A DNA stretch of 64,000 nucleotides, from positions 1 through 64,000 of IMG/VR virus record IMGVR_UViG_3300046328_000446; one strand, 5' to 3'. The translations under genes were made by a program, and so were the position numbers. The notes under the pieces are model-generated. The model saw only the letters and a list, made by a program, of their open reading frames with translations. It was not told where the DNA came from and ran no database searches. The first letter of the stretch is position 1. Every line of letters begins with the position of its first letter. This document shows, in pieces, positions 25,267 to 48,400 of this stretch. This stretch comes from a virus.

Positions 25267-28200
25267 ATGCAAGAAGATAAATTATTAGATTTTAAAAACC
25301 AAGAGATTGGCTTTTTAGTAGAGGATATAAGAGATAAGAATAGAGAAAAAGCATTATCAGTAGTAGCACCTATTGATGATGCTTTAGCTAATCTTGGAGC
25401 AATGGGCAAGTTGCCAAAACAAGCTCCAGGAACTTCTTTAGATTCTATGATAGCCTCTGCTACAAACAAACCAAAAATGGTAGACTACTCAAACGTAAAG
25501 TATGAGGATGTTTATAGTAAATATAGTGATGGGACTTTTACTCCGAGATACGACCAGTACTCTACAGTAAACCTTGATCAGGAAGAGGTTGCAGCAAGCA
25601 GACAATCTTCTGGGGATATTTGGGCAAATGCATTACCTAAATTTACAGGTAAGCTATTGACAAATACTATAGGCCAATTAGGTGGAATCTTCTATGGCAT
25701 AGGAGCAGCAGTTAATACAGGTAGTATGCAGTCTATATATGACAACTCCTTTATGGATGCAGTCAATGACGCAAATACCTTTATGGATAACAAGCTTCCA
25801 ACATATAAATCAAAAGCAGACAGAGAAGCAACAGGATTAGATTATTTGACTAAGCAAACAACTTGGGCAGATGATTTCTTGAATGGTACAGCCTTTTTTG
25901 GAGGAGCTATATTATCTGAGGCTGCTATAGAGTGGGCTACAGGTGGTGCGGCATCAAGTACAGCATTAGCTAGATGGGGAGCTAAGTTAGAACAACTACC
26001 AGGATTTGCTAAGACTTTGAATGCAGCTAGAAAGGCTTCTAACCCTGCATCTAAAGCTTTTGCAACAGGTAAATTATCCACAGGACTAGCTACAAATTTA
26101 GGTAAGACAGGTGAATTACTTCATACAATAAGATTTACAGCAACAAGTGCCGGATACGAATCTGCATTTGAGGCTAATGCTTATATGAAAGAATCTGAAG
26201 CTAATTACTACAATTCTTTCCAAGAAGCTAATGGTAGAATGCCTACAGCAGAAGAAGAAATGGATTTCAGAAGAAACCTAAAGACATCTGCTGATGGATT
26301 ATTTGGCTTCAATATGGCGATAGTTGGATCATCTAACTTAGCTATAATGGGAAAATGGTTTGACGTAAAAAGCCCCCTAACAGCACCAAGCAAATGGGCC
26401 AACTCTAAATTATTTGGGGTAGGTTACAAAAAAGTAGGTGATGAAGTAGTAGAGATAACAGGTAACAAACTTCAAAAAGCTTTAGGTAAAAGCTACGGCT
26501 TTGCTAAACCTATGTTTGTTGAAGGTGTCTGGGAAGAGGGTATGCAATCTGTTGGTACTAATACTGCCAGTAATTGGGTACAAGCTAAATACGATCCAAA
26601 ATATACAAAAAATACATATGACTTAGTAGACTCTTTTTCAGACGGACTTGCCGAAACTTACGGTACAGCAGAAGGTTGGAAAGAGATACAAATGGGTATG
26701 CTTATTGGTTTATTAGGTGGAGCTGCAGGTAACAAGTACAGCACTGGGAAATTTAACCCAGAGTACTCACAAGCAGTAGCTAAAAATAAACTTACTGTAG
26801 ATACCATGAATGCCTATTCTGGTAAAAGAGTTGCTGAAACTATGGCTTATGCAAACCGTGTACAAAGTGCAAACGAGGCATCAGAACAAGCACAAGCAGC
26901 AGGAGATTTTACAGGGTCAGAATTAGCAAGACAATCAGCAGCTTTAGCTCAATTAAACTTTGCATACAACCTTGACTACATGGATGATGCAATGGAGAAT
27001 ACTATAACATCTATCAGAAACATAGATAATCAGTCTTTGATGACTGAGTATGGTGTAGATGAGAAATCTGCAGAAGACATGAAAGCAAAAATGATCGAGG
27101 AGTACAAAGGTACTGCAGAATCATACAAAAAGAATAGAGACTTTGCTGAGTACTTCATAGGTAATAAATTATCTTCAGAAGAAAAAGCATTGTTACAAAA
27201 ACATGATGTAAACTCTTTAAAAGAAGCTTTAGCTTACGAGCTTACATTAGGTGAAAAAGCAGATAAATTTTCTAAAGATATCTTACAAGCTATCAAAGAA
27301 AAAGTTGGTACAACAGTGGCAGGGCAAGAGGTTTCTGATGCTATGACTATAGATGATGTACTGACTAAAGCCGGAAAACAAACAAAAAAAGAAGGTGAAA
27401 GAAAAGTATCTGAAATAACAAAGCTTAAAGCAAAAGTTACAGCCTTAGAAGAAGAGTACAAAAAAGTACAAAACACTTTTTATAACTCAGTTTCAGAAGA
27501 AGAGAAAAAGACATTGCTAGGAAAACTAGACAGCATAACTTCTCAAAAGCAAGAGGCAGAAACTAAAAGAGCTGAATTAGCAAAAGAATACGAAGCATTG
27601 TTTACTGCTGCTAAAATGAAAAACCCTTTCAGTAAGGACGGATCTAGTATTGTTATAACAGCAGCAAAACTTGATGTTTTAAGAGAACAAGCAGGAAATG
27701 TTAAATCAATAATTTCAGAATACCAAAAAGCTAACCCACAAGAGTCAGCTCAGTTAGAGAAGTTAGTTGAAGAGTATGGTAGATCATTGGATGCATTCCA
27801 AAAGTATGCAGATTTAGCTAGACAAATAACTGACCCTAGCTTAGGGTTAAGAGGTAAAAGAAACTTTATTTCTGAGATAAAAAGAGACAAGTCTCCTAAT
27901 GAAGTGACTGTTGAAATGCTTGAGACACTTTCTGGACGTATGGCACAAGCTACAGAGCAAGTAACTCAAGCCACAATAGAGGGTAATGAAAGAGTAAAAT
28001 CGGCAGTAGAAGAAGCAGAAGCTAAGAAAAAAGGAGCTACTATAGATAAACCTACAGCAGAACAAAAGCTAAACAAAAAGCAGAAAGAGATTGATAAAGT
28101 AAACGAAGAGTATAACTCTGAACCAATAGGTTCAAAAGCTATAACAGATACTATATCAAAACTAGCAGAGGATAACTACCTATTTACACATGTTACAAGT

Positions 28201-30933
28201 GAGCAAGAAGCTAAGAACATATTAGCTAATGGGTTTACTGTAAGTTTAGGTAAAGGTATCTCTAGCACTCTTACACAGTTAGGCTTAGATGGTGCAATGG
28301 CCCAAATAGACAGCCTTATAAATGGGGAGATAGTACACAGAGATCTAAATAATGATAGTGTAGCTATTGTAGCTGTGCCTAAGTCGGCTATTGATGCCAC
28401 AGAAGGTAACACTATTTCAGATAAATTTGAAAATTGGTTAGTAGAAAATAATCACATAAACGAAAAAGGTGATCTAGCTATACCTAAGGAATTAAATGCC
28501 GGGTATCTTAGTGAGAGAAGCAAATTTGTATTAAGCAATACAGAAGCTTCAGAAAAAGAAAAACAAGCTAAATTAGAGGCTATTGAGAAAAAGTATGAGC
28601 CTAAATCCAAAGAAGAGACAGTAGCTAAGCTTAGAGCTCAAGAGAAAAAAGAATTAGCAGAAGCTATCCCTAACATAAACGATTACAAAGTAAACGGGAA
28701 AGTAGACAAGGATAAGATAACTAATGCAGAAGATAAGGCTAAGTTTGAAGAGATCTATGCTAAATACGACAAGCTTATTACCCCTTTATTGGAGGAAGCT
28801 AAAAAGCCAGAAGTACAACAAGCAAAGAAATCAATAAGACAGACTGTTACAGACATGATCAAAAACAGTCCATATCTTTTAGAATACTATGGGCAAGATG
28901 CTGTTCCACAAACACCAACTTCTGATGAAATTGAAGAGTTTTATGAACTAGCAGCTAAAGCTATAGATGATCCTAAGATTGATACTGATCTTATTGCATT
29001 TAAGAACCCTTACAACTCTAAGAGATTTACTCCAACAACAAGACCATCTTTAACTAAGGCAGAGGTAATAAGATTACAAGAGCTTAATAATAAAATGGCA
29101 GATTGGCAATTATTAGAGGGAGTAGCAAATGACTCAGGGATATCTATAAAAGATATGTTGTTACAAGATATAGCAACTAATCAATTCGTAGAGCCTAAGA
29201 TAAACAGTGAGCTTACAGAAACAGAGCTTATAAACATATCTGAAAGAGAGCCAAAAGAAACTGACGAAGGAGAGGGAATAAGAAATGAAGAGGTATTACA
29301 GGTATATCAAAACGTAGTTATAAAAAGAAACAAGTTTGGCACCACAATATCTCACTTAACACTTCCAGGATTGATTTCAAGAATGGATGTAGCTGATACC
29401 GTAGCTTATGTAGAAACAGAGGTTGTAGACAAAAAGGTAAAAACTGTACCTAATACAGCCAAAGATATCTCAGTTGCACAAGTAGCTGCTAACGTTAAGC
29501 CAGGGGCTAATTTTGTTGTAACATTTAAAGACGGAGCAACAGCTACAATAATTGTAGATAGAAGTGGAAGCTTAGTTATAAAGAAAGAGTCAGAAGTAAA
29601 CAAAGTACTAGAAGAATCTGGTATGAGCTATATAGAGAACTCTTTTACAAAAGACTCAGGTTTCTCTCCGGTATACAGTAATGACACTGGTGAGATGATG
29701 CTTACAGATTTTAAAGACTCTAGCGAATACTCTCCTATGGAACTTTACAATATGGTTCCAGGAGATACAGTGACTTTCACACTTGATTTAACTAATGACT
29801 ACAATCAAAAGATAATTCAAGATTATATGGATGCTGTACAAGAGTTTTCAGATAAAGGCGGATTACCAGAAGTTGATGGAAAGATATCTCCAGAACTACT
29901 TAAGATAGAAAAAGACCTAGCTGATCAATTAAAGATCAATGTAACGGACATCAAAGGTAGAAAACTTGGAGACTTGAAGGCTAACTATGACACAAACAAT
30001 AGTCCAGAGTTTTTATTACTTAGAGAAGAAGCTTTAAATATTGTTAAGAGTAAAGGTGCAGGTACCATAGTAGATATAGATTTACAACTATCAAAAGAGA
30101 GTTTTGTAAAACATGTTTTCTTAGGTATGCCTAACTTTAACATAGAAGAAGGAGCTATAAAATACTTTGAAATATCACCTAAAGCTGTTGTTGACTACGG
30201 ATACGTACAGGATGGTAAAGTGGTACTAAAAGGCAACACTAAGAATGTAAGACAAGACTATGTGAAAAACTCGCTTAAGAAAGAAGGTTTGCCAGTAGTT
30301 GTGTTCAGTCAAGGTAAGTATCTTGTTGCTTTCCCTATGCAGTTGAAAGAAACGGCATCAAATATGGGGGATGTAGCAGCCGACAATTTAGCATCAGCTA
30401 AAAATTTAGGAGTTGGAGTGTTAGAGTTTAACAAGACTTTAGCAGAAAATGGATTATCACCAGCTACATACAATTTGTATTACTTAAGTGGAGACAACCA
30501 AAGCTTATCAGATATGAATGGAAAAGCTTCTGAAAGTTTACTCAAAGCCATAGATGACCTAAACAAGGTAAAACAAACAGTAGATGTATCTACATGGATG
30601 TTACCAGAGCATAGCAAAGAGAACTTAGTAAATGAGGCATCTTTAGCTATAGACATTGAAAATAACCCCCTATCTTCACCTAAGCCAATAATAAACTTAG
30701 ATAGAATGGTAGATTTTACTAGAGATTGGTACTCTGAGTTACAAGCTACAGGGTCACTATCAGATGAAAAAGCTGCTGAAATAGCTAATAAGATCTTAAA
30801 CAGAGAACCTATTACAGTTAAAGAGAACGAAGCATCTGATCATCCATTAGTACAAGAGTATATTGATGAGCAGTTAAGCCTAAATCAAGATCAGCAATCT
30901 GATATAGATGACGCTAAGAACGAAGAATGTTAA
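25267..30933 (+). CDS. Giant ejection-type polyvalent protein with ADP-ribosyltransferase-like segment, 1,888 aa
   Basis: Several Gly/Ala-rich hydrophobic stretches in the first 500 residues (about 129-155, 207-240 and 476-495) could insert in membranes, as expected of ejected proteins. A coiled coil spans about 713-783. At about 969-1,045, LFTHVTSEQEAKNILANGF followed by a Ser/Thr-rich stretch and VAIVAVPKSAID resembles the NAD-binding start (H-x-T ... A..IL..G) of ADP-ribosyltransferase-like polyvalent domains; the match is by motif only. The C-terminal half is a long alpha/beta region without recognised motifs and ends in an acidic tail. T4 Alt is a known example of an ejected ADP-ribosyltransferase that modifies host RNA polymerase, so a similar takeover role is possible. 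Whether the domain is active is unknown. Confidence 0.5.
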   Translation: MQEDKLLDFKNQEIGFLVEDIRDKNREKALSVVAPIDDALANLGAMGKLPKQAPGTSLDSMIASATNKPKMVDYSNVKYEDVYSKYSDGTFTPRYDQYSTVNLDQEEVAASRQSSGDIWANALPKFTGKLLTNTIGQLGGIFYGIGAAVNTGSMQSIYDNSFMDAVNDANTFMDNKLPTYKSKADREATGLDYLTKQTTWADDFLNGTAFFGGAILSEAAIEWATGGAASSTALARWGAKLEQLPGFAKTLNAARKASNPASKAFATGKLSTGLATNLGKTGELLHTIRFTATSAGYESAFEANAYMKESEANYYNSFQEANGRMPTAEEEMDFRRNLKTSADGLFGFNMAIVGSSNLAIMGKWFDVKSPLTAPSKWANSKLFGVGYKKVGDEVVEITGNKLQKALGKSYGFAKPMFVEGVWEEGMQSVGTNTASNWVQAKYDPKYTKNTYDLVDSFSDGLAETYGTAEGWKEIQMGMLIGLLGGAAGNKYSTGKFNPEYSQAVAKNKLTVDTMNAYSGKRVAETMAYANRVQSANEASEQAQAAGDFTGSELARQSAALAQLNFAYNLDYMDDAMENTITSIRNIDNQSLMTEYGVDEKSAEDMKAKMIEEYKGTAESYKKNRDFAEYFIGNKLSSEEKALLQKHDVNSLKEALAYELTLGEKADKFSKDILQAIKEKVGTTVAGQEVSDAMTIDDVLTKAGKQTKKEGERKVSEITKLKAKVTALEEEYKKVQNTFYNSVSEEEKKTLLGKLDSITSQKQEAETKRAELAKEYEALFTAAKMKNPFSKDGSSIVITAAKLDVLREQAGNVKSIISEYQKANPQESAQLEKLVEEYGRSLDAFQKYADLARQITDPSLGLRGKRNFISEIKRDKSPNEVTVEMLETLSGRMAQATEQVTQATIEGNERVKSAVEEAEAKKKGATIDKPTAEQKLNKKQKEIDKVNEEYNSEPIGSKAITDTISKLAEDNYLFTHVTSEQEAKNILANGFTVSLGKGISSTLTQLGLDGAMAQIDSLINGEIVHRDLNNDSVAIVAVPKSAIDATEGNTISDKFENWLVENNHINEKGDLAIPKELNAGYLSERSKFVLSNTEASEKEKQAKLEAIEKKYEPKSKEETVAKLRAQEKKELAEAIPNINDYKVNGKVDKDKITNAEDKAKFEEIYAKYDKLITPLLEEAKKPEVQQAKKSIRQTVTDMIKNSPYLLEYYGQDAVPQTPTSDEIEEFYELAAKAIDDPKIDTDLIAFKNPYNSKRFTPTTRPSLTKAEVIRLQELNNKMADWQLLEGVANDSGISIKDMLLQDIATNQFVEPKINSELTETELINISEREPKETDEGEGIRNEEVLQVYQNVVIKRNKFGTTISHLTLPGLISRMDVADTVAYVETEVVDKKVKTVPNTAKDISVAQVAANVKPGANFVVTFKDGATATIIVDRSGSLVIKKESEVNKVLEESGMSYIENSFTKDSGFSPVYSNDTGEMMLTDFKDSSEYSPMELYNMVPGDTVTFTLDLTNDYNQKIIQDYMDAVQEFSDKGGLPEVDGKISPELLKIEKDLADQLKINVTDIKGRKLGDLKANYDTNNSPEFLLLREEALNIVKSKGAGTIVDIDLQLSKESFVKHVFLGMPNFNIEEGAIKYFEISPKAVVDYGYVQDGKVVLKGNTKNVRQDYVKNSLKKEGLPVVVFSQGKYLVAFPMQLKETASNMGDVAADNLASAKNLGVGVLEFNKTLAENGLSPATYNLYYLSGDNQSLSDMNGKASESLLKAIDDLNKVKQTVDVSTWMLPEHSKENLVNEASLAIDIENNPLSSPKPIINLDRMVDFTRDWYSELQATGSLSDEKAAEIANKILNREPITVKENEASDHPLVQEYIDEQLSLNQDQQSDIDDAKNEEC

Positions 30934-31003: not shown

Positions 31004-34000
31004 ATGAGCTTAAAGTGTAGAATTTATAAAGATGAAAATGGGGAGATTGATTTTGTTGAAACTGCCAATGGTAGTAGAAGTAAATTATTTGATACATTAG
31101 TAGATATAACAGGCGGTAATAAAAACACCGCCTTAAATCTTTATGCCTTGACAGAAGTTGAGGATTTTAAAGACATTGCAGCGGCCAAAGTAAACTCTAT
31201 TAAGAATAGAGTAAAAGGTTTAGCAAAAAAAGACAGTTTATCTAATAGTGTTATAGCTCAATATAATAAACTAGAAGACGGATCCACTCCAAAAGACATT
31301 ACAGCTAATATAATAGAGAAACTATCTAACACAGGTTTATCTAATAGTGTTGCAATGCTTAACGGGGCACAAATTGCAAGCAAACTAAGAGAGTTTGGTA
31401 GAGAGAATGTATCAGAGAATACTGCAGGGTTTGTACACAAAGGAAATGTGTATTTAAACTCAGATATTATGGACTTAGATACACCTATCCATGAGTTTGG
31501 CCATATCTATTTAGACTGGTTAAAAACTAATAAGCCTGAACTTTACGAGGCAGGGGCAGCTTTAGTAATTAAGAATAAACAAGAGGCTAAGTCTTATGTA
31601 AACTATGTTAAACAAAATCAACCTAATCTAGTAGAGGGTACTGAGGAGTTTAACAATGAGGTGCTTTCACAAGTTATAGGGGACCAAGGAGCAAAGCTTA
31701 TCAACTCTAAAGTTAGAGGTAGCTTAAAACAATGGTTAAACGATTTATTTGAGGCTATCAAAAATGTACTAGGGCTTTCAGACTATACAGCTAAACAGAT
31801 TTCTTCTATGACATTAGGAGAGTTTGGTAAAGCTGCTGCTACAGACCTATTAACAAAGAAGTTTGAAGGAAGCAGAGACTTTACAGACTCAGACAGCATT
31901 ATGCTATCTGTACTTTCTGACTATAGAGACAATACTAGATTTAAGTTCTCAGATCTTATTTATCCAGACGTTGTTTTTAAAGATGTATCTAGCAAAGCAG
32001 AAACAAAAGTAGCAGTAGATTTCTACAAAAAGATTGTTAGTAAATTCAACAAAACTTTCGACAGAGATTTAAAACTAACCTCATCGAATACAGCAGAAGA
32101 CTTCACAGTAACAGTTGAGTATGAAACAGGGCTTAAACCAAAGTACTTTGCATACCCAACAGCGACTATGGGAGAGCATGCTACAGTGGATAACATAGAC
32201 AAAAATGTACCTTTAACAAGTCTTAGACATGAATTGATACATGAGATGCTTGTTAAGAATATTACAGATAAGTTTGAAAGAATAAACAACCTTGATAATA
32301 GTGCTAACATAGTATCTATAGAGGAGGTACAAAGAAATAGAGCATACAACTACACATTAGAAGATGTGTTCTTTGAAAGAGTTGTAGAGAATGTAGAGAG
32401 AAACCCGGACAACAAAGATACTTTTGAAGTTTCTACTTTTGGTACAGACATCATAAACAGAGTTAAGAAAGAATTAGAAGGGGCTGAGATCACAAAAGAC
32501 AATGTGATAAGCACTTTAGAAGAACTTTTTGATGGAAGTAACCCATGGTTAAAGTCTACAGTACTTGATATTTTTGAGAATAAAGTAGACTATTCTGTAG
32601 AGGACCTTTCTCAACTAAACGAAGAAGTAGGAATAATGTTCAAACAAAGGTTTGATCTTTCTAGAGATATCTTTAGTAAAGAACTACAAAGTAAAATATT
32701 TGACTTTGCTACTTTTTTCAACGAAGAGTATTCAGGGGTTCTTACTAGATTGAATAAAATAGAAAAAAGAAATAAACTTACTAGGGTAGTTCCTGGTAAT
32801 ACATTATTTGTAGAGAGTTTGCCGGCTGCTACAACTATAGCAAATGCTTACAAGAGGGATATGGGGATACCTTTATCAGAGACTCGTAAGATAGAAATGC
32901 TAGACATAGACAACAGCAAAAAAATAGCTCAAGAATTTGAGAGCATGGTAGACGAAAGAGGTAACCTAAGCTCTGAAACAAAAGAGGCTTACGATGCTTT
33001 AATAACAGAAACTTTAGCACAGTATGAAAAGATACTAGACTATGGTTATGTTATGGAGATCAATAATGATGAGCCCTATTCAAGTTCTAAAGAGATGATA
33101 GAAGACCTACGTGATAACAAACGTATGAAAGTATTTTCTACAGAGTCAGGATTTGGAGTAGGGGGAATAACAGCTGCTGAAAAAGCAAGTGACCCTAGAC
33201 TTGAAACTACAAAGTTTACAGATGTAAATGGATACCCTTTATTATTTAATGACGTATTCAGATTTGTACATGACTTTTTTGGACACGCTAAATTAGGAAA
33301 TGGATTTGGTGCGATAGGTGAAGAGAATGCTTGGAATGTACATTACGAGATGTACTCTCCAAAAGCTAAGAGAGCGATGACAACTGAGACAAGAGGTCAA
33401 AATTCTTGGGTTAATTTCTCAGGAGTTAATGATGAAGCTTTTGCTCTTAGAGATCAAGCTAGAAAGCTTAGAAAAGAGGGTAAATTGGAAGAAGCAAATG
33501 CTATCACTAGTCAAGTATACGATATGATGAAGTTTGCAGATCAAAAGCTAGGTCTTATGCCTATGTGGGTATCAAAAGCAAACTACACATCTCTAGAAGA
33601 TAGAAGATCAATAGAAGTTGATGGAAGCAAGATATTCTTCAGAAACCAAATCAACCCTATAACAGGGGAAGCTACAGGTAAAGTAGAGATGGAGTTGATA
33701 GAGACACCAGTAGAGCTAAGAGGCCAAGGTAAAGCAAGAGAGACGTTCAAAACAGCTTTAAGATATACAGACTCTTTAGGAAAAGATACAGTCTTAACAA
33801 TAGCAAGTAGAGATAAATTTACTACAGATGCCGGACTAGAGAGATTCTATTCATCATTAGGTTACTCTAAGACATCGGACTTTGAAATGGAGAGAAAGGC
33901 TAAGCCAGTTCTTCCTGCAAGCTATGATGATAATGGAGAGCCTGGAGTTAAGGATTTGATGGAGTACATAAACTCTACTAGCACATCTGAAAAGTTATCA

Positions 34001-35830
34001 ATAGAAGATCAAATTGTTTCAAGAAATGTAGCATTATCTATGGGGGCAAAATCTTCTGATGAACTTATTTCAAACCTAGAGAAAGCTATACTAAAAAATG
34101 GAATGTTTGTTTTTGATAAAGGATCTCTTCAAAAAAGTGGAGTGTTTAATAAGTATGAAGCTACTAAAATAGCAAACTCATTGCCTTTACAAAGAAGCAT
34201 AAAAAATGCATTTTTACAATTAAAAAATACAGAGCCTTTTACACTAGAGTACGATGAAAATTTTATCACTACTATAGGTTCACAACTTAATATTTTTGGT
34301 AAGCAGGAAGCTATGAACCCGTTTGTAGCAGAAGCAGAATTAGCTACAGATATTGCAGGAATTAGCGAGGAAGAAGTTGCAGATTACTTACTACCAGAAC
34401 TTGGAGAGAAGTACTTAAGCAACCCAAAATTCAAAGAGGCTGTAAACAATATAGCTCTGAATAACAAGCTTACAAATGTAAAGGTAGTAAAAGACGGATT
34501 GCTAGAGGACAAAACAGTAGAAATAGAAGAGACTATAGCTAACACATTAATAGACACTGAGAACCAGGAATTAGCCGAAAATATAAGGTTTATAAATGAG
34601 GATATTTCAGAAGAAGTTTGGGACGAAAATCCAAACCTAGTTGTAAGAGTCTTGGAGGCTATAAAGAAAGATGCTATTAATAGTGGTATAGACTTAAAGG
34701 ATATTTCAACCAGAGTTCTTAGCAATAGTAGAGAGGACATTTTATATTTATTAGAAACTGTTGAAAACCTATTACAAGATGGTTTAACAGAACCTAACGT
34801 AAGAGAGTTCTCAGTAGCTTATAAAAAGTTCTTTGAGTTAGATACTATAGAGACCCAAGTAATAAAGACAGACAGTGAATTTGATGTAGTAGTTGAGGCG
34901 AATATGTCTGAGTACGAATTATTCAAAAACTTTGGTTTAGTTAAAAAGCAGGGGGATATCTACAGACAGACAGAAGAGCAATCACTAGAAGATCTATACG
35001 AAGCAATTCTTGAATATCCAGAGGTAATACCATCAGATATCACAACAGTAGAAGATCTGAAATCTTTTGTAGAAAAAGATATTACAAACTTAGAAGTTTC
35101 TGACTATGAAGTAGATCCAGATATGTTAGCTAAGATGTACTTATACAAAAGGTATTTTGGATTCCCTATTAAAGCTAGGGAGATACAGGTTTCTACAGAA
35201 GGCTTAAACAAAGTTACATCTAGCCCTGAGTACTTAGTTACAGAATTTGTAAAAGAGTTCAACAAGTGGGTCCTAGAGACAGAGAATAAGTACTTCAAGG
35301 TAACAGAAAAAGGTATAGAGTTAACAGAAAAAGACCCTTTATCAAAAGAGGAGGCTATCTTAACTGTACCAGAAGAGTTCTTGAAAGATCTCTCAGAGTA
35401 TGATGCATTATCAAAAAACCTTAATTTAGGTATAGAGTCAAAAGAACTAGTTTTTGAAGACTACGATAGTCAATCACAACAAAGAGACTTCTTTGCTAAT
35501 AACCCAAGCCTTGCTAAAAAGTTATCAGGAGATTACTTATACATAGAAGACGGTGTACTAGCTGCTAAGAATGAAACTGAGACTTTTGTAAGAACACCAC
35601 AGGGGGTTTTTGAAATGATATACGAAGCAGGGAACGTTAAGTTTTACAACAAACTGCCATCTATGGATGCAAATTTTAAATTGATCGGTTTAGAAAAACC
35701 TTTATCGGATGTCAATTTTAATAAGTATCAGTATCTAGAGAATTCACCAAGTGAGTTTAAGGTGGCTAAAAACTACTATACTAAACAAGAGTTGAAACAA
35801 ATAGACGATGAATATTTCAACTGTCAATAA
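31004..35830 (+). CDS. Giant polyvalent protein with two zincin motifs and a GNAT-like domain, 1,608 aa
   Basis: An upstream in-frame TTG (30980) overlaps the promoter, so the ATG at 31004 (MSLKCRIYKDENG) is the start. HEFGHIYLDWL at about 163-173 and RHELIHEML at about 408-416 are two HExxH zinc-protease motifs. Residues about 755-800 hold a conserved-looking block (VHDFFGHAKLGNGFG, GEENAWNVHYEMY, TTETRGQNSWVNF). ELRGQGKA (about 904-911) with LERFYSSLGY (about 945-954) fits motifs A and B of GNAT acetyltransferases, in which the RGQGKA loop binds acetyl-CoA. Phage polyvalent proteins (Iyer, Aravind and colleagues) are known to string together such effector domains and enter the host with DNA. 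The last 500 residues are acidic and unassigned. The domain calls are motif-based; the family role is inferred. Confidence 0.65.
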   Translation: MSLKCRIYKDENGEIDFVETANGSRSKLFDTLVDITGGNKNTALNLYALTEVEDFKDIAAAKVNSIKNRVKGLAKKDSLSNSVIAQYNKLEDGSTPKDITANIIEKLSNTGLSNSVAMLNGAQIASKLREFGRENVSENTAGFVHKGNVYLNSDIMDLDTPIHEFGHIYLDWLKTNKPELYEAGAALVIKNKQEAKSYVNYVKQNQPNLVEGTEEFNNEVLSQVIGDQGAKLINSKVRGSLKQWLNDLFEAIKNVLGLSDYTAKQISSMTLGEFGKAAATDLLTKKFEGSRDFTDSDSIMLSVLSDYRDNTRFKFSDLIYPDVVFKDVSSKAETKVAVDFYKKIVSKFNKTFDRDLKLTSSNTAEDFTVTVEYETGLKPKYFAYPTATMGEHATVDNIDKNVPLTSLRHELIHEMLVKNITDKFERINNLDNSANIVSIEEVQRNRAYNYTLEDVFFERVVENVERNPDNKDTFEVSTFGTDIINRVKKELEGAEITKDNVISTLEELFDGSNPWLKSTVLDIFENKVDYSVEDLSQLNEEVGIMFKQRFDLSRDIFSKELQSKIFDFATFFNEEYSGVLTRLNKIEKRNKLTRVVPGNTLFVESLPAATTIANAYKRDMGIPLSETRKIEMLDIDNSKKIAQEFESMVDERGNLSSETKEAYDALITETLAQYEKILDYGYVMEINNDEPYSSSKEMIEDLRDNKRMKVFSTESGFGVGGITAAEKASDPRLETTKFTDVNGYPLLFNDVFRFVHDFFGHAKLGNGFGAIGEENAWNVHYEMYSPKAKRAMTTETRGQNSWVNFSGVNDEAFALRDQARKLRKEGKLEEANAITSQVYDMMKFADQKLGLMPMWVSKANYTSLEDRRSIEVDGSKIFFRNQINPITGEATGKVEMELIETPVELRGQGKARETFKTALRYTDSLGKDTVLTIASRDKFTTDAGLERFYSSLGYSKTSDFEMERKAKPVLPASYDDNGEPGVKDLMEYINSTSTSEKLSIEDQIVSRNVALSMGAKSSDELISNLEKAILKNGMFVFDKGSLQKSGVFNKYEATKIANSLPLQRSIKNAFLQLKNTEPFTLEYDENFITTIGSQLNIFGKQEAMNPFVAEAELATDIAGISEEEVADYLLPELGEKYLSNPKFKEAVNNIALNNKLTNVKVVKDGLLEDKTVEIEETIANTLIDTENQELAENIRFINEDISEEVWDENPNLVVRVLEAIKKDAINSGIDLKDISTRVLSNSREDILYLLETVENLLQDGLTEPNVREFSVAYKKFFELDTIETQVIKTDSEFDVVVEANMSEYELFKNFGLVKKQGDIYRQTEEQSLEDLYEAILEYPEVIPSDITTVEDLKSFVEKDITNLEVSDYEVDPDMLAKMYLYKRYFGFPIKAREIQVSTEGLNKVTSSPEYLVTEFVKEFNKWVLETENKYFKVTEKGIELTEKDPLSKEEAILTVPEEFLKDLSEYDALSKNLNLGIESKELVFEDYDSQSQQRDFFANNPSLAKKLSGDYLYIEDGVLAAKNETETFVRTPQGVFEMIYEAGNVKFYNKLPSMDANFKLIGLEKPLSDVNFNKYQYLENSPSEFKVAKNYYTKQELKQIDDEYFNCQ

Positions 35831-35924: not shown

Positions 35925-38900
35925 ATGAGCTGTACGATTAAATATAATGAGAATGGTAGTATAAAAAACGTTCTTGACCTAGAAGGTAACGAAAGTAGAC
36001 TATTCAAGCAGATAGCTAGACTACCACATGTTGGAGGTTTAGAAGAAGCTTTGTCTATTTTTAAGAATGTTTATTCAGAAAAAATAAATGAGCAAAATCC
36101 TATCTCTTTCTTATCAGATAAAGGAGCCAAATTAGAGTCTTTCAAAGAGGCTTTAGCTGACTCTTCCGGAGGAAATATAGAAATAGGTATAGATACAGAT
36201 GCAGGTTTCAAAACCTTATTATCTGTGTCATCTAACACAAACCCAGCAACTTACGAAGGGTTCATAAACAACTTGATAAAAAGCGATATTTTATCAGATG
36301 AAAAGATTATTGAAGACGGGCTGACTTACCACAAGGCAGCAGGTAACCATGCACCGTTACAAATAGCGAATGAGCAGATTATAAAAGAGGAGGCCAAAAC
36401 CAATCTAAATAGAAAAAACTTTAAGATCTATAAAGACGGTAGAATTGAACTTATCAACAAGAAGAATACCATAGAAGTAAATGGTAAAGACATGCCTGTT
36501 GAAGAGTTGAGAACTATGTCTTTGAGAGAGTTAGAAAAATCTATGAGTAAAGAGGATGCTTTGGAGCTGATTATCAACAATGCAGTCTCTGAGGCACTAC
36601 CTTCTGGAGTAAGTTCAGAAACTATGACAGCTACAGAAGAAGCTCTTAAACTTAACTTATTGGATTTACTAAACGGTATGGGAGTTAAAGTAACTTCTAT
36701 CGCTAGCTACGTTAGTAACTACAACACAAGAAACGGTGTAGATCCATCGGCCAGAGCCCTTTTAGATGTAGCTGAACAAGTTATAGCTTTTAAGGACGGT
36801 CTTATTTCTATAGACTCTCTTACAGAAGAGACTTCACACTTTATTGTAGAGACTTGGGATGATGCAGAAATTGAAAACTTACTAAGAAATATACACAAAA
36901 CTAGTTCTTATGTAGAGTTCTCTCAATCATACAGAGAGTTATACACAAGAGAAAATCCAGGTATGTCTGCTGAACAAGTAGAGAACTTGGTTAGAAGAGA
37001 GCTATTAGGTAAGGAATTAGCAAAAGCTATACAAGAAAGATTTAATACAGAGGGTAAAACAGAAACCCAAAAAAGCATAGTAGGAAGACTTTTTGAATTA
37101 TTAAGAAAGTTTTTTGACTCAGTGGTTGCAAACGATACATTCTATTCAGACTTAGAGGCATTAACATTGAAAGTGGAGGACTTGCTGTTAACAAAGGATG
37201 TGAATAAGTATTTGAACTTAGATAAAGCTAAGACTAAGACTTTTAGAATGTATCAGCAACAAGCTAGTGGTAATGTAGTTATAGATACCAAAAATGCTAT
37301 TGTTAAGAAATTAGTAAAGTCTTTATTAGAACAAGAAAAAAGTCTTAGAAAAGCAGGTAGAGGATCTAGTGCAGGTATTCAAATGTTAAATGAGACTCTA
37401 GAAAAAGCTATTACAAAAAGCTCAATACTAGACCTTGTAGCCTTGGCAAAAAGACAAGCAGACTACGTTTCAACGGCTATCGAAACTTCAAAAAAGAGAG
37501 GGGAAACTTTATCAAATGAAGAAGGTATAGTACTTAAAGGTTTGACAGAACAAATTGTACCTATTTTATCTAGGTTATCAGCTTTAGCTAAAGAGGATAC
37601 AGATTTGGCAGACATCTTAACAGACATTGAAGCAGTAAGCACAAAAGTTTTAGCTGTAACCGGAGCCGCTAAGAATGTACAGAATGATGTACTTGATAGA
37701 ATTATAGACCGTTTAATGGTTAGACATAGATTAGACGAAGATGTAAGGGATAAATTAAAAGATGCAGTACTTGTTGCTACAAGAGATACACAAATGTTGT
37801 ATGCTGTTTTTGGTCAAATTACCCACGCACACGATCCATTACTAAACATATTAGGTAGTGTTATTGCTGATATGACACTTGATGCAGAACACAGTTATTT
37901 AAAAAGAGCTAAGGAGTTTCAAGCAAAAATACGTGAGCTTGGTTTTACAGAGTCTGACTTGCCTAAACTTATGGACAAAGATGGTTACATCCTGAGTGCA
38001 TACGATTTTACAGCTTTTGAAGAGGATGTATTGAACTTAAAACTAGAGGCTTATAAAAAGTATTCTGGTACAACTATGTCTGATGAGGCTATTAAGAAAG
38101 GTATAAAAGAATACAACTTACCAAAAATTGAAGATGAAGATGCAGAAAAAGCTTATACAAAAGAAGTTAATGATGCAGTTAATTCTAAGATAGAAAGAAG
38201 CTTTACTGAGGAATACTACCAAGGAAGAGAAGATAAATACAATAGATTAGGTATAAGTGAGGCTACAAAAACACACCTTAAATTATTGTCTGTAGACTTA
38301 GGTAGCCTTATGTCTAGAGTAAAGAATGAAAAAGGATTACCTAGATATACAGCTCAAAATAAATATGAGTTAGATGCAATAAACTTGAAAAGAAAGGCCT
38401 TAAAGTCTTTACATGATAGTTTGGGGGATCTAAAAACTGGTATAAGACCGGTAGACTCACCATCAAGTACTTCAATAGAAGTGAATGGATCATATTTTGA
38501 ACTTAGACCTAATGCAAACGAAGAGTCTAGAATAGCTTTTGAACTAAACAAATTAGATCAAGCGTTCTTAGCTGAGAAGCAAGAAGAGGCACGACAAGCA
38601 GGAGGCCAAAAAATAGATGTAGAGAAACTTGCACCTAAATTTTTGGAAGAGTTAAACAGAATTGAAAAAGAAGAGGGAAGAGAAGCAGCAGTAGAATTCT
38701 TTACATTGAATTCAAGCATAGGTTTTTCTAACGACTTCTGGAACAACTTTGATAACTCTGAAAGTATGATGACTTTCTTAGACTCATACAGTCAAAGACC
38801 AGATGCAGAAGAAGTTTGGTCTGATAAAATAAAAGCATACAAAGAGTTTCTAGATAACAGAAAAGCTATATTAAAGCAATACCAAGACTCTAGAAACTAT

Positions 38901-41639
38901 ACTAACACTATGGCTGAAGAGATGTCTGATCAACAAAGAGCCAAGGTTATTGAGTTGTCAGAAGACATAGACAGAATATCTTCAGAGCTTTACACAATAT
39001 TCAAGAATAATGTAGAGCAGGATTCAGAAAGAACGGTAATAGCAGAGTCTACACCAAACCAAGCTTACTATCAAGCTCTAGAAGATGGTAGAATTACAAA
39101 GCCAGAGGCTAAGTATGAGTTTGCATTGAAAAACATGACTGTAGACAACATTAAGAAAGCTAGACAATTTGCAGATGCTTTAGATGATGCAGTTAGAGGA
39201 AGAAGGGTATCTGAGAGTCATAGAAACTTAATACTAAGAACAGTAGGTATTAATGACCTATCTGAGTTGAATGAAGATGACATAATAACAGCAAAATTAA
39301 AGTATGCAGAGTCTAAATTGGCACCTTACTATAAGTCTTTTGCACCTCTTGGATTAGAGAGCTTTTACAACTCTTTGAAAAATGGTACACAAGATGTCTC
39401 TACTTTAGTTAAACAACTAAATGAAAGAACAGACATAAAAGTAAGTAACAATTTTTCTTACTACGAGATGGGGGAGATTAAATTCAAAAACCCTAACTAT
39501 AAAGAAGATTTCGAGGGTGGTTCTAAGCAACCAAAACTTGATCAATATCTTAACAAAGAGTTTGTAAGATTGTTCAACCCTATCCTAGATAGCAATAACA
39601 ATCCTATCTTAGATAGCAATGGTAAAATACAAGCTACTAGCAACCAGAAATTATTTGCTTTGTACGATGAGTACATAGAGTTTCAAAAAGAGAGTTTAAG
39701 ATCTTACGGTGAATTAGGGACACACAATTTATACCTAGCTCCACAAGTATCGAAAACTAGTCTTGAAAAAACTAACGATTTGCTGAAAGGTAAAAAAGGT
39801 ACGATAAAAGAATGGTGGAGAGATATTGTTAGATTTAGAGTAGACGAACAAGCCTTTGGAGAGGAGTTGGATGGGGAAGCATTAGCAAAGACTGCTGATA
39901 TGAGAATCGTACCAAAGTACTTCTTAAAGAAACTAGAAGAGCCTACAGATGTATCTACGGATCTTTTTTACAGTTCTATGTTACTAGCTCAACAATCACA
40001 ATTATATAAGGCTAGAAAAGAGAGATACTCTGAGTTTGCTACCCTTAATGATTTAGCTTTAAACAGAGCTTATCCTGAAGGTAAAGCAGCTACATCTACA
40101 AATACTTACAAGATGTTTCAATCTTACTACGACCATAATTTATTTGGGGTAAAAGAAAAGAGAAACTGGCGAGTAAATGTACCAGTACTAGGACAGATAG
40201 ATGTAACAAAAGTTGTGAATGTATTACACGGATGGATCCGAAATAACTCTTTGGCATTGAACTTTGTTGTACCAGTTACTTCATGGGCTACAGCTGAAGC
40301 CTCTCTTCTTATAGAGAAGTATGTAGGACAGTACGTAGATAAAAATTCAGTTAGCTTAGCAGGGAAAGAGTTTTTAAAAATATCTTACCCGGCCATAAAA
40401 GAGAACTTAGAGATTGATTCTAAATCAAGGCTTTCTATGTTGGGAGAACACTTCAACATATTTGAACTGAGCAATAGATTTGAAAACTCTATGTATGCAA
40501 AAGCACCAAGAGTACTTGCAAAATCCATGTATATTTTACATACCGCAGGTAACTTTGTGCCACTATCAAAAGCAATGTTGTCACAGTTATATGGTCACAG
40601 AGTATATGAGGGAGGATTAGCAGATTTCAAACAGTTTGAAAAGTTGTACAAAAGGTCTAACCCATCTGCTACTATAAAGGATGTAAAAAATCAATGGGAG
40701 CTTCTTGCTGATAAATCTTTTTATAACTACTTAATAACAGATGAGGCTTCAGTGTCTTATGATTATGACAGATTAGCAGAAGATATGAATAGAGTTAACG
40801 ATGACAAGTTCAAAGAAGACTTTAGAAACATGGAGTTAGGAGTAGCTAATAAACTTAAGAAAGTTGTAGAGAGAATAGATGGTATGATTACCAACGAAGA
40901 AAGAACGAGTATGCAAAGAGACGTTCTTGGAAGATTTGCAATGACACATAAAGGTTGGTTAGCAATTTCTGCAGCAAACAGGTTTAAAAGAAGACACTTA
41001 AATCTACAGACAGGACAAATGGAAGAGGGTACTTACTACTCTTTATATAATTTTGTTGTAGAGAACTTCAACAACGGTTTGAAAAAAGGTGGTATGAAAG
41101 CCGCTTTAGCTGAGTTAAAGGATCAGTACGTTAATGGAGACGAAGTACAAAGAGAAAATATTAGAAGAATCCTTGTTGACTTTAACTTCCTTACATTATT
41201 GTTCTTGCTAACATTAGGGTTAGGGCACTGGGCAGATGATGAAGAAGATATGTGGGCAGCTCAATTCTCAGCTTATATGTTAGAGAGGGTTACCACAGAG
41301 ACATCTTCTACTCAACTAGGTGTTTTTGGAGAGTTTTATGCTTCTGTAAAAGAACCTCTAGTAGGGGTTCAAAAGTTAGAGAACTTATTTAAGGTTACTC
41401 AAGCATTTGATACAGACGTAGTAAAAAGTGGTAGATTTTCAGGGATGACAAATCAACAAGTTTATTTCTTAAAGAATGTTGTTGGAGCAAAACCTACATT
41501 TGATATCTGGAACGCAGGTAATTTGAACTCTTTGAGAGAGACATACGATTACTTTAATAAAGATGAAGCTCTTATACCAGTGGCTTACCTTATAGATGAA
41601 GATGATCTTAAGCCAGGTGGATGGGCAGCAGAATATTAA
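35925..41639 (+). CDS. Giant ejection-type virion protein, 1,904 aa
   Basis: The N-terminus (SCTIKYNENGSIKNVLDLEG) is built like that of the preceding giant (SLKCRIYKDENGEIDFV), suggesting a shared N-terminal module. At about 300-309, TEETSHFIVE looks like a degenerate zincin helix (E-E-x-x-H), so any protease there is probably altered. The middle (about 430-1,300) is long, helical and charged, with coiled-coil potential. The C-terminal 400 residues contain hydrophobic stretches (LALNFVVPVTSWATAEASLL at about 1,443; FNFLTLLFLLTLGLGHW at about 1,754) that could span a membrane. I did not see the D-x-D-x-D polymerase motif of crAss-like virion RNA polymerases. It has its own promoter and ends at the bidirectional terminator. 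Ejection with the genome is inferred. Confidence 0.5.
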   Translation: MSCTIKYNENGSIKNVLDLEGNESRLFKQIARLPHVGGLEEALSIFKNVYSEKINEQNPISFLSDKGAKLESFKEALADSSGGNIEIGIDTDAGFKTLLSVSSNTNPATYEGFINNLIKSDILSDEKIIEDGLTYHKAAGNHAPLQIANEQIIKEEAKTNLNRKNFKIYKDGRIELINKKNTIEVNGKDMPVEELRTMSLRELEKSMSKEDALELIINNAVSEALPSGVSSETMTATEEALKLNLLDLLNGMGVKVTSIASYVSNYNTRNGVDPSARALLDVAEQVIAFKDGLISIDSLTEETSHFIVETWDDAEIENLLRNIHKTSSYVEFSQSYRELYTRENPGMSAEQVENLVRRELLGKELAKAIQERFNTEGKTETQKSIVGRLFELLRKFFDSVVANDTFYSDLEALTLKVEDLLLTKDVNKYLNLDKAKTKTFRMYQQQASGNVVIDTKNAIVKKLVKSLLEQEKSLRKAGRGSSAGIQMLNETLEKAITKSSILDLVALAKRQADYVSTAIETSKKRGETLSNEEGIVLKGLTEQIVPILSRLSALAKEDTDLADILTDIEAVSTKVLAVTGAAKNVQNDVLDRIIDRLMVRHRLDEDVRDKLKDAVLVATRDTQMLYAVFGQITHAHDPLLNILGSVIADMTLDAEHSYLKRAKEFQAKIRELGFTESDLPKLMDKDGYILSAYDFTAFEEDVLNLKLEAYKKYSGTTMSDEAIKKGIKEYNLPKIEDEDAEKAYTKEVNDAVNSKIERSFTEEYYQGREDKYNRLGISEATKTHLKLLSVDLGSLMSRVKNEKGLPRYTAQNKYELDAINLKRKALKSLHDSLGDLKTGIRPVDSPSSTSIEVNGSYFELRPNANEESRIAFELNKLDQAFLAEKQEEARQAGGQKIDVEKLAPKFLEELNRIEKEEGREAAVEFFTLNSSIGFSNDFWNNFDNSESMMTFLDSYSQRPDAEEVWSDKIKAYKEFLDNRKAILKQYQDSRNYTNTMAEEMSDQQRAKVIELSEDIDRISSELYTIFKNNVEQDSERTVIAESTPNQAYYQALEDGRITKPEAKYEFALKNMTVDNIKKARQFADALDDAVRGRRVSESHRNLILRTVGINDLSELNEDDIITAKLKYAESKLAPYYKSFAPLGLESFYNSLKNGTQDVSTLVKQLNERTDIKVSNNFSYYEMGEIKFKNPNYKEDFEGGSKQPKLDQYLNKEFVRLFNPILDSNNNPILDSNGKIQATSNQKLFALYDEYIEFQKESLRSYGELGTHNLYLAPQVSKTSLEKTNDLLKGKKGTIKEWWRDIVRFRVDEQAFGEELDGEALAKTADMRIVPKYFLKKLEEPTDVSTDLFYSSMLLAQQSQLYKARKERYSEFATLNDLALNRAYPEGKAATSTNTYKMFQSYYDHNLFGVKEKRNWRVNVPVLGQIDVTKVVNVLHGWIRNNSLALNFVVPVTSWATAEASLLIEKYVGQYVDKNSVSLAGKEFLKISYPAIKENLEIDSKSRLSMLGEHFNIFELSNRFENSMYAKAPRVLAKSMYILHTAGNFVPLSKAMLSQLYGHRVYEGGLADFKQFEKLYKRSNPSATIKDVKNQWELLADKSFYNYLITDEASVSYDYDRLAEDMNRVNDDKFKEDFRNMELGVANKLKKVVERIDGMITNEERTSMQRDVLGRFAMTHKGWLAISAANRFKRRHLNLQTGQMEEGTYYSLYNFVVENFNNGLKKGGMKAALAELKDQYVNGDEVQRENIRRILVDFNFLTLLFLLTLGLGHWADDEEDMWAAQFSAYMLERVTTETSSTQLGVFGEFYASVKEPLVGVQKLENLFKVTQAFDTDVVKSGRFSGMTNQQVYFLKNVVGAKPTFDIWNAGNLNSLRETYDYFNKDEALIPVAYLIDEDDLKPGGWAAEY

Positions 41640-46456: not shown

Positions 46457-48400
46457 TTAATGTACTGCTGCATAAGACTCCCCTGTTTGGATATCAATCT
46501 CAATTTCTACAGGAAAGTTGTATTGTTTATTTACTCTATTTATAGACTGTTTAAGAGCCTCAATTGTTGAATCTATGTCTTCGTTCTTAACTCTTAATAA
46601 AACCTCGTCATGGGCTTGAAAAATGGGTCTAACACCACGTTTAATCATTTCATACACATAACCATCAAAGACTCTAACACCTGCTGACTGATTACAAGCA
46701 GAAAATCTATCTTTTTCAGAGGCTAAAAAGTAGTAAAAGTTTGTAATAGGGTTCCAAATCCAAGTTTTACCATCTACAACTATTACCTCTCTGTCTTCTG
46801 CATATTTCTTAACAGACCAGTTACGACCCCAATACCCATCGTATAAAATCTTAGCATCTTTTGTAGTAAGACCAGTAGACTCTTTAAGCTTAGGTACTCC
46901 ACAACCATAAGTTAAAGCATAGTTACCTGTTTTAGAAGTTGCTCTTTTTTTACTTACTTTTTCAAATTGCTCAGACAACTCTTCATCTTTATAAACCTTG
47001 AATATCTCAGGTAAGTCTTCTCTCTTTTTATCTTTTGTTTTATACCAACGAAAGAAGTCAGACTCTTCTTGTGAGATAATACCACTTCTAACACCTAGAT
47101 CCAAGTGGGCATCCCAACCCGGCCTGTTCATATCTTCAACATATCCAGGATCATAAGGATAAATAGAAATCTGTTTCATCTTGTCTTCCAAACTACTAAC
47201 ATCCGAACCAATAAGCACAGAACCTTTAGGAGCTATGATTACACTACGGATAAATTCTCCATAAGGGGCTGTCGGCTTTGGTAAATTAACAAACGGTTTG
47301 GCATGTTTCAACCTCAAAGTCTTAGTAAAACCGTGAGCATAAGCTACTGCATAACCATTCTCATCAGCTCTTTCTAAGAAGCCCTTCAAGTAACCTGCTC
47401 TGTGTGTTACTACAGATAAACCATCTAAGTGCTCAATAGCCGGCTCCTTTGCACCTAAAGCTAATACACTCTTACATAACATCTTTTCTTTATCTCTAAC
47501 TTGTGGCACTTTACCATTTCTACCGTCTTCAAACAATAAAGGTTTCCAACCAAGGCCCATCAACCAATCTTTTACTTGTGTAGGACTTCCGGCATTAGGT
47601 TCTTCATAACCTGTAATCATGGTAACCTCACCATCATAATCTTCTCTGATACCATTTTGTTCTAAGATCTCAAACCATCTAGCTCCGGCAACACTAAGAC
47701 TACCATCTTTTTTATAACAAACCTTAGGCTTTGTCAAAGACTTCTTGATAGGTATTTTTGGCATAGCAGCTTCTAATAAAGCTTTCTTTTCATTCTCAAT
47801 ACCTTGTAGATAGTCTAAGTTTTTTTGACATTGTTCTACATCAATCAATATTTTATCTTCCTCTTGTATCTTAAGGCATGTTAGCTTAAAATTAAGGTAG
47901 CTGATAATTCTTACTATATCTCTAGGATCTTGGTAGATCTTTTTAAGATAGTTGTATTGTTTAACCCAAAGGTTAGTATTAATCTTAACATCTTCTTCTA
48001 CCCTGTTTCTGTATTCTTCTATAGAAAGGTTTTCCCAGTTGTCGATCTTCGGTTTAGGTACACCGAACTCTTCTCCCCAAGAAGCTAAACCATGGTCTCT
48101 TTGGCCTCTTTCTGGGTACAAGTACCAAGACAATCCTAAAGAGTCTATTACACTAGCTGTAACTTTTATACCAAGTATCTTTTCATACAAGGGTACATCA
48201 AACCTAACTATGTTATGGCAGACCAATGTGTTGTCAGGGTTAGTCAAGATATTACGCATATCCTCATAGTCAACAGTAGATTTAACTTTCCACTTACCAG
48301 ACTTATCCATCCAACTTATTCCCATACACCAGATCTTTGTAGACTGATCTACAAGTCCATCTGACTCTGCATCTATTACGTATATCTTATCTAAATTCAT
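46457..48400 (-). CDS. Family A DNA polymerase with 3'-5' exonuclease, 647 aa
   Basis: The exonuclease domain shows IDAESDGL (Asp10, Glu12), CHNIVRFDVP and YRNRVEEDVKIN. The polymerase domain shows motif A SDVSSLEDKM, motif B RATSKTGNYALTYGCG (with the Lys and Tyr-Gly) and motif C AHDEVLL. At 647 residues it is a phage-size (T7-like) enzyme without a 5' nuclease. It is the main replicative polymerase of the block, one base downstream of a homing-endonuclease gene and one base upstream of the L,D-transpeptidase ATG. The reading frame is uninterrupted, with no intron or intein. Confidence 0.92.
   Translation of the reverse strand: MNLDKIYVIDAESDGLVDQSTKIWCMGISWMDKSGKWKVKSTVDYEDMRNILTNPDNTLVCHNIVRFDVPLYEKILGIKVTASVIDSLGLSWYLYPERGQRDHGLASWGEEFGVPKPKIDNWENLSIEEYRNRVEEDVKINTNLWVKQYNYLKKIYQDPRDIVRIISYLNFKLTCLKIQEEDKILIDVEQCQKNLDYLQGIENEKKALLEAAMPKIPIKKSLTKPKVCYKKDGSLSVAGARWFEILEQNGIREDYDGEVTMITGYEEPNAGSPTQVKDWLMGLGWKPLLFEDGRNGKVPQVRDKEKMLCKSVLALGAKEPAIEHLDGLSVVTHRAGYLKGFLERADENGYAVAYAHGFTKTLRLKHAKPFVNLPKPTAPYGEFIRSVIIAPKGSVLIGSDVSSLEDKMKQISIYPYDPGYVEDMNRPGWDAHLDLGVRSGIISQEESDFFRWYKTKDKKREDLPEIFKVYKDEELSEQFEKVSKKRATSKTGNYALTYGCGVPKLKESTGLTTKDAKILYDGYWGRNWSVKKYAEDREVIVVDGKTWIWNPITNFYYFLASEKDRFSACNQSAGVRVFDGYVYEMIKRGVRPIFQAHDEVLLRVKNEDIDSTIEALKQSINRVNKQYNFPVEIEIDIQTGESYAAVH

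Follow-up and report, generated by a model that had tools for sequence, protein, structure and literature searches.

The gene at 31004-35830 on the + strand of a 64,000-nucleotide stretch of virus DNA (hereafter the window; positions 1 to 64,000 of the 64,018-base IMG/VR virus record IMGVR_UViG_3300046328_000446) encodes a 1,608-amino-acid (aa) protein, which we read, with a probability of roughly 0.7, as a polyvalent virion protein of an epsilon-group crAss-like phage. Two likely zincin-like metallopeptidase domains, a domain that belongs to no Pfam family and a minimal GNAT acetyltransferase domain lie in this one chain, between an N-terminal leader and a C-terminal core that are kept across the family while the cargo between the fixed parts varies. 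Of the class and the architecture we are quite confident.

Coding sequence and motifs

All the motifs that a first-pass annotation had assigned to one 1,608-residue chain were found in it. A single open reading frame (ORF), 31004-35830 (+), holds HEFGH (residues 163-167), HELIH (409-413), FGHAKLGNGFG (759-769), TTETRGQNSW (793-802), RGQGKA (906-911) and LERFYSSLGY (945-954). The ATG at 31004 is favoured as the start, since translation from this ATG or its counterpart begins with MSL[KN]C in the window protein and in each of five distinct orthologues; the mechanical ORF opens at a TTG eight codons 5' of it. With the 9 His and 165 Glu of this chain, composition predicts 0.005 HExxH motifs; at least one appeared in 20 of 5,000 shuffles and two in none of them, so the presence of two is beyond chance. 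A second IMG/VR contig (L001) carries a 20,824-base stretch that includes the gene and is 100% identical, and thus the gene is no assembly oddity of one record. With the whole protein as query, no profile match passed the threshold in Pfam, NCBIfam or the PDB.

Exchangeable cargo between fixed ends

The comparison covered six distinct full-length members from IMG/VR, namely the window protein (= L001), L002 (= L003, an identical protein), L005, L014, L015 and L016. Overall, the leader, the third domain, the GNAT domain and the core each occur in all six. Zincin 1, on the other hand, occurs in five (it is missing from L002), and zincin 2 in the window protein only. In L005, L014, L015 and L016 the place of zincin 2 is taken by a kinase-looking stretch, whose likeness to protein kinases was judged by eye only and which had no Pfam match in L014 and L016. 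Both L014 and L015 bear another HExxH (HEIQH) closer to the N-terminus, and L014 contains LPD23 (E 3.2e-11) and ART-PolyVal (E 4e-10), both above the Pfam cut-offs. Since the cargo between the fixed parts varies, and includes LPD23 and ART-PolyVal in L014, the protein is a polyvalent protein in the sense of Iyer (2017). In L002 (8001-12149), the position of E795 in the third domain is taken by Q and the GNAT loop reads KGNGDA; this version is possibly decayed or re-purposed.

The N-terminal leader (residues 1-50; 31004-31153, +), kept in 6/6 distinct members, is shared with the N-terminus of the giant protein encoded from 35925. By hhalign the two leaders were related with probability 94.8 (P 5.4e-8), the 45 aligned columns running in register from the start codon on. 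The reversed control gave probability 53.8 and P 1.3e-4 over 20 columns, which tells us that P-values run too low for such small alignments; the forward match stands well above this control. Gp36 of Cellulophaga phage phi17:2, one of the five rows in the second leader alignment, opens alike. Among the loci compared, a joint leader profile matched only 31004-type and 35925-type genes. The simplest reading is that the shared leader would be a common packaging or ejection signal.

The C-terminal core (residues 1089-1607; 34268-35824, +) is homologous to a stand-alone 517-aa protein of Cellulophaga phages, gp37 of phi4:1 and gp38 of phi17:2 (tblastn E 8e-16, or 8e-17 for the core region alone; blastp 1.5e-21). 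The counterpart is a separate 517-aa protein in seven Cellulophaga phage records, and the core region as query retrieved nothing besides these records from the annotated phage collection at E 0.001. Because phi4:1 gp37 is labelled 'structural protein' from tandem mass spectrometry (MS/MS), the core homologue is a virion protein on the word of that record, and the virion role that the first-pass annotation had envisaged is therefore supported. The phi4:1 homologue consists of the core alone, and the remaining ~1,050 residues of the window protein are therefore an addition; neither gp37 nor gp38 has a zincin, third-domain or GNAT motif, or a match to the leader. All six full-length members close in EYFxCQ (window 35816-35827) and phi17:2 gp38 closes in KELKCN, the penultimate Cys being conserved.

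Two probable zincin-like domains

Zincin 1 (residues ~98-290; 31295-31873, +) contains HEFGH at 31490-31504 and a probable third ligand, E219 in EFNNEVLSQVIG, at 31658-31660. The HExxH is kept in 35 of 35 non-redundant relatives and, judged by eye, so is the downstream Glu, which sits in an EEALAxAIGxKG-like motif; this conservation is somewhat circular, since the retrieval patterns overlapped parts of both motifs, as alternatives that were not jointly required. No Pfam match was obtained for this domain. From the HExxH and the downstream Glu, we regard zincin 1 as a likely zincin-like metallopeptidase.

Zincin 2 (residues ~300-560; 31901-32683, +) contains HELIH at 32228-32242 and, at 32357-32389, LEDVFFERVVE, the probable third-ligand helix. 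Its single relative, in the Bacteroidetes contig L143, is 49% identical and stands in a locus where the third domain is also present. When viral contigs were scanned with the single sequence of zincin 2, the identical contig L001 was the sole hit, and the profiles of the two zincins gave no match to each other. A model was predicted for 705 residues (mean predicted local distance difference test score (pLDDT) 75, predicted template modelling score (pTM) 0.44; model residue + 295 = protein residue). In its numbering, zincin 2 has a helix at 36-57, strands at 62-68 and 71-77, HELIH at 114-118 within a helix at 109-136, and a Glu-rich helix at 157-171; the pLDDT of helix 109-136 is about 54-74 (about 66-74 around HELIH). 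The order of these elements fits the zincin core fold (helix, three-stranded sheet, HExxH helix, Glu helix) as given in the excerpts used here from Iyer et al. (PMC5512222), with low confidence at the Glu helix. A fold match was not obtainable for zincin 2 because GNATs filled the list of structure matches. By its motif and a model of low to moderate confidence, zincin 2 is likely a zincin-like metallopeptidase as well. Thus, of the two zincins that had been proposed from their HExxH motifs, the first is supported by the HExxH and downstream Glu across the family, and the second by motif and element order only.

A predicted minimal GNAT domain that resembles AcrVA5

The minimal GNAT acetyltransferase domain (residues ~867-966; 33602-33901, +) carries the acetyl-CoA loop RGQGKA at 33719-33736. 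In the model we observed a strand at 595-605, the RGQGKA loop at 611-616, a helix at 615-630, a strand at 634-637, a helix at 647-656 and a further strand, with pLDDT 73-92. This corresponds to the GNAT order of beta4, R/Q-x-x-G-x-G/A loop, alpha3, beta5 and alpha4, so that RGQGKA occupies its place in a predicted GNAT arrangement minus the first part of the fold. The acetyltransferase that the first-pass annotation had suspected from this loop was thereby recovered: structure prediction, profile search, Foldseek and VIA all agree with RGQGKA lying inside a GNAT fold.

By VIA, the anti-CRISPR protein AcrVA5 (6iuf) came first, with Z 13.2 and a root-mean-square deviation of 1.9 over 91 of 95 residues; the runner-up reached Z 11.1. 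A seven-sequence profile likewise placed AcrVA5 first of 177,635 PDB sequences (E 4.9e-5, the next 0.0024); the separation had been weaker with an earlier four-sequence profile (0.0014 vs 0.0023). Among the 50 Foldseek matches listed, 47 were GNATs, with probability 0.99-1.00 and E 0.004-0.025. The Acetyltransf_1 cut-off was passed by two non-orthologous relatives, L196 and L245. Scanning viral contigs with the GNAT alignment gave eight loci, the identical contig included, and a single-sequence scan of them gave only this identical contig, L001; tblastn with the GNAT segment found nothing at E 0.1 in the annotated phage collection.

AcrVA5 inactivates Cas12a through acetylation, and its structural relative from a Bacteroidota phage, AcrVA5Bsp, inhibits LbCas12a in vitro, as excerpted from PMC10799925. 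By analogy, a host defence protein would be the leading candidate for the target of the window GNAT, at 16-18% identity to AcrVA5.

A widespread third domain

The block FGHAKLGNGFG ... TTETRGQNSW, which had been flagged as conserved-looking, proved to be part of a real domain in its own right, with no Pfam family and no clear PDB match, and is the least described part of the protein. This third domain (residues ~606-858; 32819-33577, +) includes HDFFGH at 33269-33286, GE773, H780, E795 and Q799. It accounted for at least 577 of the 599 matched stretches in viral contigs and for 122 of the 153 in genomes, and the scans kept the best 80 of the former and the best 80 of the latter. From the best 170 rows, 167 remained after removal of those with stops or N and 133 after removal of near-duplicates; the final alignment comprised 123 rows and the window. 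The loci L001 and L174-L177 (the same phage) and L006-L013 (the annotated phage collection) were left out.

Eleven residues (Q673, Y692, F752, R753, H756, H761, F768, G772, E773, H780 and Q799) were invariant in 124 of 124 rows, among them genes from actinomycete contigs, and E795 was kept in 118. The scans for this domain and for zincin 1 used patterns such as DTPIHEF, GQNS[WS].., GE[EQ].A[WY] and NDxFR.VHD, and because these drove retrieval, conservation inside the scan motifs is partly by construction; Q673, Y692, H761, H780 and E795 fall outside the patterns.

AlphaFold predicted the third domain with pLDDT 93.1 and pTM 0.90. There was no common Pfam family, no single family being matched at E 0.1 by more than 3 of the 124 members (first 25 of 34 families), and NCBIfam had no family for the domain in five homologues and the window protein; in PHROGs it is phrog_3170, of unknown function. 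Foldseek against the PDB gave no match at E<=0.001, and the VIA rows stayed at Z 5.0 or below, the top ones being short helical pieces. No zincin was among the VIA rows shown for this model or for the 705-residue one, where absence proves nothing. Of the BFVD rows, the first 21 look to be members of the family, and beyond them stand short unnamed proteins at E 0.0045-0.29 (Vibrio phage 1.204.O, Arthronema virus TR020, Pseudomonas phages LKA1 and shl2, and one unnamed entry). As one BFVD family member is named 'NAT_SF domain containing', the third domain and a GNAT may meet elsewhere too.

Among the annotated phages examined (n=6), the third domain lies within proteins of 848 to ~4,000 residues from cyanophages and uncultured phages; as a separate protein it occurs in mycobacteriophage Pio (Bixzunavirus) and Gordonia phage Skog. 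Stand-alone copies of about 220-265 aa are found in actinomycete contigs (Micromonospora, Asanoa, Nocardia, Streptomyces and others; L124, L137 and similar loci, at about position 6001). In the Micromonospora locus L124, the gene adjoins an N-6 DNA methylase and a Ser/Thr kinase. A further copy, L120, is in a contig binned as Euryarchaeota, possibly a virus or a misbinned contig. A heme-oxygenase-like diiron reading of the domain was dropped, as the order of motifs differs.

Proposed mechanism and alternatives

We propose that a leader of 50-75 residues and a core of ~520 residues would place the chain in the virion and carry it through the tail, and that the stretch between them would serve as a cargo bay of swappable enzymes, here zincin 1, zincin 2, the ~250-residue third domain and the minimal GNAT. 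The chain would pass the tail probably partly unfolded, as the excerpted text of PMC10172136 proposes for crAss001 cargo, and refold in the host. The zincins would then cut the chain into working parts, a step to which we give an even chance, and might also cut host proteins. The freed GNAT would acetylate a host protein, likeliest a defence protein; that it disables a host defence nuclease is a tentative proposal. The most far-reaching version is unlikely as a whole: a virion-packed anti-CRISPR acetyltransferase, freed by its own zincins, would disable a host nuclease ahead of any phage gene expression, and with it would travel a new and widespread metal-dependent enzyme domain (HDxFGH...GExxxxxxH...ETRGQN) that also exists as single genes in actinomycetes.

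Several observations weigh against this account. All support for this phage is computational. The core match is at 23% identity, and L002 is without any HExxH, so zincin processing is no general requirement of the family. For zincin 2, the pLDDT is 53-62 at the Glu helix and two sequences are known in all. Even at E 1, Pfam has no acetyltransferase model that matches the GNAT segment of the window, and Foldseek with the 705-residue model gave no match at E<=0.001. The proximity to AcrVA5 has its own weaknesses: the sequence identity is low as given above, Foldseek puts AcrVA5 third by E-value, after 2r7h and Naa50, and the short length of AcrVA5 raises its Z. Because other GNATs (RimI, TacT toxins) reach VIA Z 10-11, a defence protein is only a candidate target of the GNAT.

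Two other explanations of the chain's function were weighed. The protein might be mainly structural, its ~1,000 N-terminal residues being virion filler that grew by insertion and whose enzyme folds are degenerate; its neighbours are indeed labelled virion proteins in phi4:1, and L002 has Q at the place of E795 and no HExxH. Mere filler, however, would fit poorly with a zincin 1 HExxH and (by eye) downstream Glu kept 35/35, with H756, H761, E773, H780 and Q799 invariant 124/124, actinomycete genes included, or with a phi4:1 homologue that is the core alone, and we consider it quite improbable. Possible, if doubtful, is a GNAT that poisons translation by acetylating aminoacyl-tRNA or a ribosomal protein, like the TacT/AtaT toxins or RimI. 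RimI (VIA Z 10.9) and TacT1 (10.3) come within 3 units of AcrVA5, and both polyvalent GNAT families are set in a RimI-like clade in the excerpts from Iyer et al. (PMC5512222). Nevertheless, AcrVA5 was the best match by both profile and VIA, and the window domain is without the N-terminal part of larger GNATs, RimI and TacT1 aligning only from residues 34-37 on.

As for the third domain, we asked how well it compares with biopterin-dependent aromatic amino acid hydroxylases, in which case it would be an iron enzyme with ligands H756, H761 and E795. The H[DE]xFGH motif and its spacing match bacterial hydroxylases, and by eye the pattern ahead of the motif is similar too. Hydroxylases make up 3 of the 50 Foldseek PDB matches listed (of 57), at ranks 6, 14 and 49, vs 45 of 177,635 distinct PDB sequences, but these matches have E 2.2-9.2 and TM-scores of 0.14-0.17. 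The hhalign score for this comparison was reached in 0 of 200 column shuffles; the signal, however, amounts to seven residues and was equalled by 55 of 200 shuffles of 8-column blocks. A single hydroxylase, 7vgm, appeared among the VIA rows (Z 3.6); its match covers helices 214-258 off the motif, and no hydroxylase row covers the active site, although absence there proves nothing. PF00351 (Biopterin_H) gave no match in the window. Overall, we hold this kinship to be rather unlikely. The polyvalent virion protein is our preferred explanation, with the third domain as part of its cargo.

Phage identity and neighbouring genes

The window genes starting at 13922, 17255 plus 20367, 22402, 25267, 31004 and 35925 correspond, colinearly, to phi17:2 gp42, gp41, gp40, gp39, gp38 and gp36. 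Seven window proteins thus pair with six phi17:2 proteins in the same order, and the giant virion genes are common to both. Excerpts from PMC7886860 assign phi17:2 to the Epsilon crAss-like group, and by homology and gene order the phage of the window would be an epsilon-group crAss-like phage (Bacteroidota) too.

Two giant proteins flank the gene. The preceding one (25267-30933, +; 1,888 aa) is a homologue of phi17:2 gp39 and phi4:1 gp38, the latter with an MS/MS note (blastp 1.3e-81 to the Cellulophaga homologue; phrog_32390 at E 2.6e-95). The next one (35925-41639, +; 1,904 aa) is a homologue of phi17:2 gp36, with 29.5% identity over 99% of its length, and of phi4:1 gp35, which also has an MS/MS note; a crAssE-Sib homologue matches over 92%. 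In the phi4:1 record, gp35, gp37, gp38, gp39, gp40 and gp41 are labelled structural from 'experimental MS/MS proteomics analysis', i.e. six of the seven genes gp35-gp41, the exception being gp36 (hypothetical).

The Epsilon group is reported, in the same excerpts from PMC7886860, to be without the giant transcription block of its relatives, and a divergent virion RNA polymerase is argued for crAssE-Sib in the excerpted part of PMC11054128. We found no RNA polymerase D.D.D motif in the giant proteins 25267, 31004 and 35925; among the seven ORFs examined, two had matches, 6318 and 22402. The crAss001 virion is described in PMC10172136, again in excerpt, as storing giant cargo proteins that exit through the tail.

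Elsewhere in the window, the product of 46457-48400 is homologous to DNA polymerases (phrog_17, and also phrog_15971, which is DNA polymerase I). By contrast, PMC7886860, as excerpted, reports the Epsilon group as an exception to DNA polymerase carriage. The 1,108-aa product of 13922-17248 has a glucosaminidase domain above its cut-off; PG-binding and CHAP also match, though below their cut-offs, and HEIGH stands at residue 381. By sequence it is probably a multi-domain cell-wall enzyme. The 2,193-aa product of 6318-12899 is a virion structural protein (phrog_37948) that shows a match to a PKD-like domain close to its C-terminus.

Comparison with known systems

In T4, the internal proteins and Alt, several ejected proteins, share an N-terminal capsid targeting sequence. 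The leader of the window protein, ~50 residues long, is like that signal by description only, and processing is not implied. In the usual view, a phage makes its anti-CRISPR proteins only once it has entered the cell, and the first phages are exposed as a result. If our interpretation is true, an AcrVA5-shaped enzyme packed in the virion would abolish that delay. For the Epsilon group, with its reported lack of the transcription block, the window shows enzyme cargo among the giant virion genes. Because the third domain is widespread, confidently predicted and without a Pfam family or clear PDB relative, one structure or assay of it would explain part of many phage proteins.

The closest Cellulophaga counterparts, phi4:1 gp37 and phi17:2 gp38, share the homologous core and the same slot between two giant virion proteins; they differ in being 517 aa long, with no cargo motifs and no leader match. 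With AcrVA5 (6iuf) and AcrVA5Bsp (PMC10799925, in excerpt), the window GNAT shares a minimal fold without the N-terminal part, a fold Z of 13.2 and relatives in Bacteroidota phages. AcrVA5, however, is a free small protein, whereas the window GNAT is a domain inside a virion protein, at 16-18% identity.

The polyvalent proteins of Iyer (2017) offer the broadest parallel. As far as the excerpts from PMC5512222 describe them, they too are huge chains of disparate enzymes with zincin-like peptidases and GNATs, presumed to be delivered together with the DNA, and about 36% of them bear one to five zincins, about 8% of these in more than one copy; ART and LPD domains appear in an orthologue of the window protein. 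The window protein likewise unites disparate enzyme domains on a single polypeptide of a mobile element, and as to presence in the virion, the MS/MS label covers the homologue of the core only. Unlike the polyvalent proteins of those excerpts, the window protein belongs to crAss-like phages and has a cargo bay framed by a fixed leader and a fixed core, as well as a GNAT that is closest to AcrVA5, and its third domain matches no Pfam LPD model (124 members, first 25 of 34 families). No open-access paper turned up that pairs AcrVA5 with polyvalent proteins, that treats a crAss-like virion metallopeptidase and acetyltransferase, or that links a phage aromatic amino acid hydroxylase to polyvalent proteins, which does not imply absence elsewhere. 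The first-pass annotation had suggested that the combination may be new. As a class it is not, since injected proteins that join several enzymes, zincins and GNATs among them, are known (PMC5512222, in excerpt); the composition found here is new. What goes beyond the known class is a GNAT, probably virion-borne and nearest to AcrVA5, together with a widespread, well-folded domain without a family.

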